This document shows, piece by piece, positions 44,653-46,706 of a stretch of DNA of 49,597 nucleotides. The stretch is from an uncultured Phycisphaera sp. (GTDB taxonomy: Bacteria; Planctomycetota; Phycisphaerae; Phycisphaerales; SM1A02). Made by a program: the position numbers and the translations under genes. Positions within the stretch are counted from its first letter, which is position 1. The number at the start of each line of letters is the position of its first letter. The DNA lies in NCBI GenBank assembly GCA_937919685.1, contig CALFOM010000170.1:1-49597 (forward strand), given 5' to 3'. Below the pieces are notes generated by a model. That model saw only the letters and a list, made by a program, of their open reading frames with translations, ran no database searches and was not told the origin of the DNA.

Positions 44653-45057
44653 ATGCATCGACCCGGCGCCGATCCCGAAGCAATCATCCCCTCGGACATC
44701 CTCTGCGATTTCTGCACTCGATCCTGGAGTGACGATATTCCGCTCGTAGAGGGGCATCAGGGCTCTTGTATCTGTGGAAACTGCCTGGCGATCGCCTGGC
44801 GAGCGGTCATCGATGCCGGAATCGACGACGCACCACCGCAGACGCCCGAAGAGGACATCACCTCGGGGCCGAGTTGGATATGCGCCCTCTGCCTTGAGCC
44901 TCGCCGCGACCCGGCGTTTCAAAGCCCGGTGCGGGAGGAGGCCTTCGTCTGCCGCCGCTGCATCAGGCTCGCCGGCCGAGCCCTCGACGGCGACCCCGAT
45001 CACGACTGGACGAAGCCGTCGAGTGGTGCCGTCTCAGACCGGGAACCGGACGACTGA
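44653..45057 (+). CDS. Small protein with two zinc-ribbon-like cysteine clusters
   Basis: A 134-residue acidic protein with two similar halves. The first has CDFC (18-21) and CICGNC (39-44); the second has CALC (77-80) and CRRC (100-103). Each half places two CxxC-type pairs about 20 residues apart, as in ClpX-type or treble-clef zinc fingers, and each second pair opens a helix (LAIAWRAV, IRLAGRAL). Zinc binding is inferred. The start at 44653 fits the leaderless pattern. It is 34 bp upstream of the nitrilase fusion gene. Confidence 0.68.
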   Translation: MHRPGADPEAIIPSDILCDFCTRSWSDDIPLVEGHQGSCICGNCLAIAWRAVIDAGIDDAPPQTPEEDITSGPSWICALCLEPRRDPAFQSPVREEAFVCRRCIRLAGRALDGDPDHDWTKPSSGAVSDREPDD

Positions 45058-45091: not shown

Positions 45092-46504
45092 ATGCGTCTC
45101 GCCGCCATCCAACTTCGTTCCGCACTGCTCGATCGCGACGAGACCTCGAAGCGGGTCGTTCGGCACATCCATGCCGCCGCGGAAGCCGGCGCGGAACTCG
45201 TGGTCTTTCCCGAGGCCTGTCTTCCCGGATATCCGGTCTGGCTCGCCCGAACCCATGGCGCCGCGTTCGACGATCCACGACAGAAGGCGATCCACGCTCG
45301 GTACGTCGAATCCTCCGTCATGCCATCCCACGGCCATCTGGAACCGATCTGCGCGGCGGCGGCGGTCTGCAACCTCGAAGTCGTGATCGGCGCCGTCGAA
45401 CGTGCGGTTGACCGAGGCGGTCATACCCTTTATTGCTCAGCGATGTGGATCGATGCCAACGGCCATCTCGTCAACAATCATCGCAAGCTCGTTCCCACCT
45501 ACGAGGAACGACTCTGCTGGGGCGCCGGTGACGGGGCGGGACTTCGCACCCGACGTGTCGGCGGCATGAACGTTGGCGTGCTGAACTGCTGGGAGAATTG
45601 GATGCCGCTGGCCCGAACCGCCCTCCAGAGTGACGGCATGGACGTGCACTTGCTGCTCTGGCCTGGCTCGAAGGCGCTCACTCGCGAACTGACCCGCGTC
45701 GTGGCTCGGGAAGGCCGGTGCTACGCCGTCAGCGTCGGCGGCGTCCTTGCGCCAAAGGACCTCCCCGCGGACCTTCCGGAATTGGCGGAACTCCGGGCAT
45801 CGACCGAGCCGTATTTCCTCGAAGGCGGTTCGGGTGTGGCGGGGCCGGATGGCGTCTGGATGGTCGATCCGGATGATCTGGCCTCGGGCGAGGAGACCAT
45901 GCTGGTCGTGGATCTCGATCCTTCGAAGATTCGTGAAGAACGCCAGAACTTCGATCCCGTTGGTCACTACGCCCGCCCAGACGTTTTCGAACTCGCGGTC
46001 GACCGCCGAAGACAGGTCGTCGCCGCGTTCATCGACGATGCCGCGCCGATTGTCTCTCCGAACGGGGCTCCCTCCATCGACGGACTCGATCACCTCGTCC
46101 TGACGGTTCGCGATCCGGATCACGCGGTGCGCTTCTACCGCCGTGTCCTTGGATTCGAAGAGTTCCGGGTTGGTGACGAACATCGCGGCCTCCGATTCGG
46201 AGGCCAGGAAATCGTGCTTCGAACGGAGGATGACAGTTCGGACGTCCAGAGCAGCCGTGCCACCTGGGGATGTTCCGACCTTTGTCTGATCTCACGAACC
46301 CCGGTCGAAACGTGGCTCGTTCACCTGAAACGTTACGGTATCCAAATCGTGCAGGGGCCCGTCGACCGAACGGGCGCCACCGGCCCGATTCGGTCGGTTC
46401 ACTTCCGAGATCCCGACGGAAACCTGATCGAGATCGCCAATCGTCGGCCAACCCGACCCCTTGATGCTCCCCCTCCGCCAGGCTACGACCTGATGGATTC
46501 TTGA
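45092..46504 (+). CDS. Nitrilase fused to a C-terminal glyoxalase/VOC domain
   Basis: A 470-residue bifunctional-looking enzyme. Residues 1-305 are a nitrilase-superfamily hydrolase with the Glu41-Lys132-Cys166 triad (FPEACLPGYP, HRKLVPTYEE, NCWENWMPLAR). The GHYARPDVFEL end is typical of true nitrilases, which turn nitriles into acids. Residues 330-452 are a vicinal-oxygen-chelate domain: GLDHLVLTVRDPDHAVRFYRRVLGF, with His334, and SVHFRDPDGNLIEI with Glu447 as probable metal ligands. The junction is in one frame with no stop, so it is a genuine single gene. ATG at 45092 matches the nitrilase N-terminus. I know no standard enzyme with this fusion. Confidence 0.88.
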   Translation: MRLAAIQLRSALLDRDETSKRVVRHIHAAAEAGAELVVFPEACLPGYPVWLARTHGAAFDDPRQKAIHARYVESSVMPSHGHLEPICAAAAVCNLEVVIGAVERAVDRGGHTLYCSAMWIDANGHLVNNHRKLVPTYEERLCWGAGDGAGLRTRRVGGMNVGVLNCWENWMPLARTALQSDGMDVHLLLWPGSKALTRELTRVVAREGRCYAVSVGGVLAPKDLPADLPELAELRASTEPYFLEGGSGVAGPDGVWMVDPDDLASGEETMLVVDLDPSKIREERQNFDPVGHYARPDVFELAVDRRRQVVAAFIDDAAPIVSPNGAPSIDGLDHLVLTVRDPDHAVRFYRRVLGFEEFRVGDEHRGLRFGGQEIVLRTEDDSSDVQSSRATWGCSDLCLISRTPVETWLVHLKRYGIQIVQGPVDRTGATGPIRSVHFRDPDGNLIEIANRRPTRPLDAPPPPGYDLMDS

Positions 46505-46532
46505 ATCACTCCAATTGAAACGGATTTTTCCA

Positions 46533-46706
46533 ATGATCGAACGCAGATCCCTCGCCGTGCTCCGAGCCGAACGACGCCAAGGTAAGACCAAGAAGATGGC
46601 CATCGTCGCCATCGCCTTGATGCTGCTCGCCCTGATCGGGTACGTCATGACTAACGACGAGTCCACGGTTCCCGGCGAAGGCGGCGAAGAGATGGTCGGG
46701 GAATGA
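46533..46706 (+). CDS. Small single-span membrane protein
   Basis: A 57-residue protein with a basic N-terminal half (RRSLAVLRAERRQGKTKK), one hydrophobic span (about 22-43, MAIVAIALMLLALIGYVM) and an acidic C-terminal tail. Topology should be N-in. No family recognised. ATG at 46533 has only weak purines upstream; it begins 29 bp after the nitrilase fusion gene and is probably co-transcribed. It ends 25 bp from convergent argE. Confidence 0.55.
   Translation: MIERRSLAVLRAERRQGKTKKMAIVAIALMLLALIGYVMTNDESTVPGEGGEEMVGE

Follow-up and report, generated by a model that had tools for sequence, protein, structure and literature searches.

The nearest solved relatives of the protein described here are nitrilases that assemble into filaments. 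The NIT4 study (PMC6637149) names a CEEK tetrad for this enzyme and describes its filament core as packed by the C-terminal tail; filament geometry and this tail both affect the specificity and stability of nitrilases. The filament nitrilases 8uxu, 6zby, 6i00 (NIT4) and 3wuy (Nit6803) share the fold of our protein over about residues 1-298 with detectable sequence similarity, but none of them has a VOC domain, whereas our protein carries one of 122 residues after the tail. Standalone C-N hydrolases from Planctomycetota, Bacteroidota, Pseudomonadota and other phyla (among them L008, L095 and L101) are 42-55% identical to it over about residues 1-316, and unlike the fusion they also lack the VOC domain. 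On the VOC side, STM3117 (3hnq), human GLOD5 (3zw5) and a Vibrio integron cassette protein (3ey7) occur as free proteins of one domain each and carry N-L-H on strand 4, in contrast to the [VE]-L-R of the fused copies. A C-N hydrolase is likewise joined to another domain in NitFhit (1ems, which appeared among our fold matches) and in the fusions with NAD synthetase and Lnt; we take these to differ in partner and in superfamily branch and to stem from separate fusion events.

Sequence comparison indicates that a small group of uncultured Phycisphaerae encodes a VOC-tailed nitrilase, whose junction is genuine and maintained by selection. A natural nitrilase with a whole extra domain on its tail offers a ready test of redirecting assembly through a fused module, and the fused lineage also provides a VOC domain with a changed conserved motif. 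The original prediction had called the architecture not a textbook one, and indeed no description of it was found in the open-licence literature, although a database architecture entry or a report elsewhere may exist.

The fused gene and its distribution

The gene lies in the window, the whole 49,597-nucleotide stretch of DNA from an uncultured Phycisphaera sp. that was analysed (Table 1). Its frame is uninterrupted from end to end, as had been claimed, and the numbering given earlier for Glu41, Lys132, Cys166, His334 and Glu447 was correct, with GHYARPD located at residue 291. When the 470-aa protein was searched with Pfam, CN_hydrolase was placed at residues 2-284 (122.1 bits against a cut-off of 23.2) and Glyoxalase at residues 331-448 (50.4 bits against 20.6). 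Both domains are well over their curated cut-offs, in agreement with the claim that a complete nitrilase is joined to a VOC domain. The AlphaFold model of the whole protein had a mean pLDDT of 80. Most of the nitrilase part exceeded 90, but values fell below 50 for much of the linker and for the beginning of the VOC domain, so that the interface has no reliable model; ten-residue blocks of the remaining VOC domain ranged from 44 to 77. Read by eye, the strand and helix order of the modelled VOC domain appears to follow two beta-alpha-beta-beta-beta units.

Table 1. Features of the nitrilase-VOC locus, in window coordinates.
Feature	Position	Strand	Basis and remarks
Upstream zinc-ribbon gene (zf-C4_ClpX), start uncertain	44668..45057	+	Pfam match; 34 bp before the fusion
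Nitrilase-VOC fusion gene	45092..46504	+	Single open frame, 470 aa plus stop, ATG start
Nitrilase domain, residues 1-308	45092..46015	+	PF00795 E 3.3e-35; 8uxu E 4.3e-40; Glu41, Lys132, Glu139, Cys166
Linker, residues 309-328	46016..46075	+	pLDDT <50 at 315-328; faster evolving
VOC (glyoxalase-fold) domain, STM3117/GLOD5 type, residues 329-450	46076..46441	+	PF00903 E 3.6e-13; 3hnq E 2.6e-31
Strand-4 motif E-I-V-L-R, residues 373-377	46208..46222	+	Alignment; K-I-N-L-H in most free relatives aligned
Downstream small protein	46515..46706	+	Hydrophobic middle stretch as judged by eye; conserved neighbour without a Pfam match

The fusion was searched for in 61 genomes, comprising the window's own genome and those of its genus (8 genomes), family and order. 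The fusion or pieces of it were present in 7 of the 61, every one inside the genus. Five genus genomes, the window's included, encode the full-length fusion, 470 aa each and alignable without gaps. In G001 the nitrilase frame crosses the junction and stays open as far as the contig goes, up to residue 343, with most of the remainder on a second contig; hence the junction is read through in six of the eight. From G002 only the two ends of the fusion were recovered, on two contigs, and the junction and the strand-4 motif fall outside the sequence covered. Both the fusion and the zinc-ribbon gene went undetected in G005, but as this genome is 88% complete their absence is uncertain.

GTDB was scanned with fused and standalone sequences aligned together as the query, and the best 80 of 589 relatives were inspected. 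Three of these 80 were fusions (L092, L093 and L094) and the other 77 included no further one. L092 and L094 repeat the genus genomes G006 and G004, respectively. L093, from the Phycisphaerae isolate Plancto1, is new: its fusion of 473 aa is 66% identical, lies at the same locus and has a VOC domain scoring 45.6 bits with Pfam Glyoxalase. In two evenly drawn and overlapping genome samples, with up to 4 or 5 candidates scored per genome, the fusion was detected in 1 of 392 genomes of the phylum (the window's own) and in 2 of 298 of the class (the window's own and G006). The fusion was thus found in the genus and in L093, and no further one in the 392 sampled phylum genomes; additional fusions may exist outside the matches scored.

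The window's assembly is fragmented (254 contigs), and an assembly error or a frameshift could in principle have fused two genes. Such an artefact is hardly conceivable, as the identical junction recurs without a frameshift in six genus genomes and in L093; the original prediction had named a frameshift or stop at this very place as the observation that would speak against a fusion. The gap-free 470-aa copies in the genus and the 66%-identical copy of L093 at the same locus led us to reject this explanation. A complete nitrilase and a VOC domain are genuinely fused in this gene, and the fusion is conserved.

In a tree of 106 nitrilase rows built by a quick method, the six fused rows formed one clade with an SH-aLRT of 100; L146 (no readable frame), L031-L038, and L092 and L094 (duplicates of L003 and L005) were left out. 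The best explanation is that the nitrilase gained the VOC domain once in this sampling, at the point where its C-terminal tail ends. By the Nei-Gojobori method over ten genus pairs, dN/dS of the VOC domain (0.034-0.106) was similar to that of the nitrilase (0.040-0.110), and the linker gave 0.151-0.467; these ratios are rough because dS was often high. As the VOC domain is under purifying selection like that on the nitrilase, it is in use.

Mobile elements were searched as well. Plasmids gave 800 matching records, and exactly one of them covers at least 80% of the query. This record (H83, 83% coverage, among the 60 rows listed) was rejected as a fusion, since its 27.6%-identity nitrilase alignment extends into an annotated radical SAM gene. 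Viral contigs searched for the VOC domain gave 8 pattern matches, none of them a relative.

The nitrilase half and its standalone relatives

Glu41, Lys132, Glu139 and Cys166 were invariant across 37 aligned proteins. The filament nitrilase 8uxu was both the nearest solved protein by sequence and the top match when the whole model was submitted to a fold search (Z 36.5, rmsd 2.7, 282 aligned). The best fold matches were nitrilases and cyanide dihydratases or hydratases, with rows spanning residues 1-301 only. The fold of this half matches that of filament formers. We place it in the true (spiral-type) nitrilase class of the CN hydrolase superfamily, and it would use its cysteine to hydrolyse a nitrile or related C-N compound, which is its putative activity. 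An amidase or another C-N hydrolase, with the VOC domain helping to recognise an unusual substrate, is a very improbable alternative. The one annotated record inspected from the nearest group (H1; group identity about 50%) does carry a generic annotation, and the NCBIfam Nit6803 model (TIGR04048) scored 167.4 bits, below its cut-off of 502.6. However, the best solved relatives by both sequence and fold are the nitrilases and cyanide dihydratases or hydratases named above.

The standalone C-N hydrolase group is the likely parent of the fusion's nitrilase. Its members end at about residues 307-331 in fusion numbering and the VOC domain begins at 329; the fusion retains the tail stretch of the standalone relatives and adds the VOC domain after it. 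In all 76 rows read, out of the 77 GTDB standalone rows, the frame ended within 15 residues beyond the match.

The surroundings of the standalone genes were then compared. An STM3117-type VOC gene (E 0.05 or better) lay beside the standalone nitrilase in none of 88 loci, a set that includes some duplicates and whose flanks reach up to about 6 kb, less at contig ends. A gene pair of the Rosetta-stone kind was therefore rejected. When the neighbourhoods of the 77 GTDB standalone loci were clustered, every family other than the nitrilase (65 loci in one cluster) was confined to at most 11 loci, and no pathway hint was seen. The phylum listing, with 4 candidates scored per genome, was inspected by eye; among the matches listed, 11 genomes had a free STM3117-type VOC; a nitrilase of at least 44% identity was found in one of them and a distant one (33-37%) in four.

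Two minor observations were made on these relatives. The L095-L171 nitrilase group (about 42-53% identity) is spread over Bacteroidota, Pseudomonadota, Chloroflexota, Gemmatimonadota, Actinomycetota and others, and some of its Bacteroidota members lie near genes that by eye resemble mevalonate-pathway enzymes and a UbiA-type prenyltransferase. In genome G244, an STM3117-type VOC (L078, 46% identity) ends a 460-codon open frame, in which the part directly before the VOC seems to be of low complexity by eye; a fusion is not assumed there.

The VOC domain and its putative role

The closest solved relatives of the VOC domain are the STM3117/GLOD5-type structures 3hnq, 3huh, 3zw5, 3ey7 and 3ey8 (E values from 2.6e-31 to 6.6e-25 for 3hnq, 3zw5 and 3ey7), followed by FosB at 1.7e-4. 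Modelled alone, the domain had a pLDDT of 59 and its fold matches, mostly glyoxalase-fold entries plus unrelated ones, were all at Z below 6. Because this model is poor, the VOC assignment rests on sequence. According to a review (PMC7397319), STM3117 has a Co2+-stimulated glyoxalase-type activity that is hard to reconcile with itaconate degradation data. The function of STM3117 itself is disputed.

N-L-H was present on strand 4 in all 14 free STM3117/GLOD5-type domains (11/11 planctomycete and 3/3 solved), a subgroup mark seen in the free members aligned here and not a published definition. L087-L089 were not counted among the 14, being VOCs of lower relatedness (33-35% identity) whose strand 4 reads differently. 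Each of the seven fused domains covering residues 375-377 had [VE]-L-R and none had N-L-H; Val-Leu-Arg is the usual form, the G001 piece included, and Glu-Leu-Arg occurs in L093. Meanwhile, His334, Asp396 and Glu447 are conserved in the six full fused VOC domains aligned, down to 66% identity, and the RDP[DE]GNLIE stretch is kept. Residues 334, 375, 396 and 447 presumably correspond to the four positions that supply metal ligands in glyoxalase I, an assignment made by internal-repeat reasoning rather than by superposition. The putative metal site of the fused domain thus seems altered, yet possible. His334 and Glu447, which the original prediction regarded as plausible metal ligands, are conserved, but the strand-4 Asn/His pair of the free relatives has become Val-or-Glu/Arg.

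VOC folds commonly pair with themselves. We tentatively prefer, as a reading with something short of an even chance, that the VOC domain acts on assembly and not as a second metal-dependent step. In a known nitrilase filament the core is packed by this tail, and a VOC domain located there would drive assembly in place of open-ended filament growth. A ligand bound by it would tune the nitrilase, with no second metal-dependent catalysis by the VOC domain. One VOC domain per subunit should be incompatible with an unchanged filament core. From this position on the tail, we infer that its role is probably accessory, namely to set assembly and to bind a ligand. The missing VOC gene at the standalone loci and the patchy co-occurrence in the phylum also make such a role preferable to a second catalytic step. 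The earlier alternative that the VOC domain serves as a binding module fits better than two consecutive steps on one substrate.

It should be pointed out that the surviving His334, Asp396 and Glu447, together with Glu375 in L093, mean that a metal site could exist, and the purifying selection on the VOC domain fits a second enzyme equally well. A bifunctional enzyme, in which the nitrilase yields an acid (or amide) and the VOC domain then converts it in a metal-dependent manner, is accordingly possible, though rather unlikely. Strong selection on the VOC domain, the retained polar residues, the activity reported for Salmonella STM3117 and the few phylum genomes holding both a free VOC and a nitrilase are in its favour, but the fused copies have lost N-L-H and an STM3117-type VOC was absent from all 88 standalone loci. 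The consecutive-step proposal, the main idea of the original prediction, is thus weakly supported.

The preferred reading, assembly plus ligand binding, has two narrower neighbours. In the first, the VOC domain is a dimerisation module with no pocket function. This is unlikely: its location on the tail and the common dimerisation of VOC folds agree with a pure assembly handle, but the polar residues 334, 396 and 447 stay unchanged down to 66% identity. In the second, which we regard as distinctly doubtful, the Arg-motif VOC would bind a ligand, either a small carboxylate or one derived from a nitrile, and VOC dimers on the tail would switch the nitrilase between assembly states. If true, regulation of this nitrilase would lie with a fused sensor domain.

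Gene neighbourhood

The gene order at the locus is a divergent histidine kinase, the zinc-ribbon gene, the fusion, the small protein and an M20-type peptidase on the opposite strand. The genus genomes keep this five-gene order, G001 and G002 in pieces, and so does L093. The zinc-ribbon gene, which may be co-expressed with the fusion according to the original prediction, adjoins it in the seven genus genomes possessing it and in L093. However, the zinc-ribbon gene is widespread, being present in 50 of the 61 genomes, 43 of these outside the genus, and in the 13 outside-genus loci checked no nitrilase match lay within 1.5 kb of it. The adjacency therefore says little about the function of the fusion. 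Where distances to a standalone nitrilase were taken, they were about 15 kb in G042 and 667 kb in G046.

In G035 (L068), the small gene follows the zinc-ribbon gene at ~140 bp with nothing between them, and the fusion is missing. Hence the fusion occupies an older arrangement, through gain here or loss there.

By eye, the zinc-ribbon protein has two Cys clusters, the first of which is the zf-C4_ClpX match. In 9 of the 13 outside-genus loci a gene related to the histidine kinase of the window adjoins the zinc-ribbon gene, and it is divergent in 7; the two genes possibly form a conserved pair.
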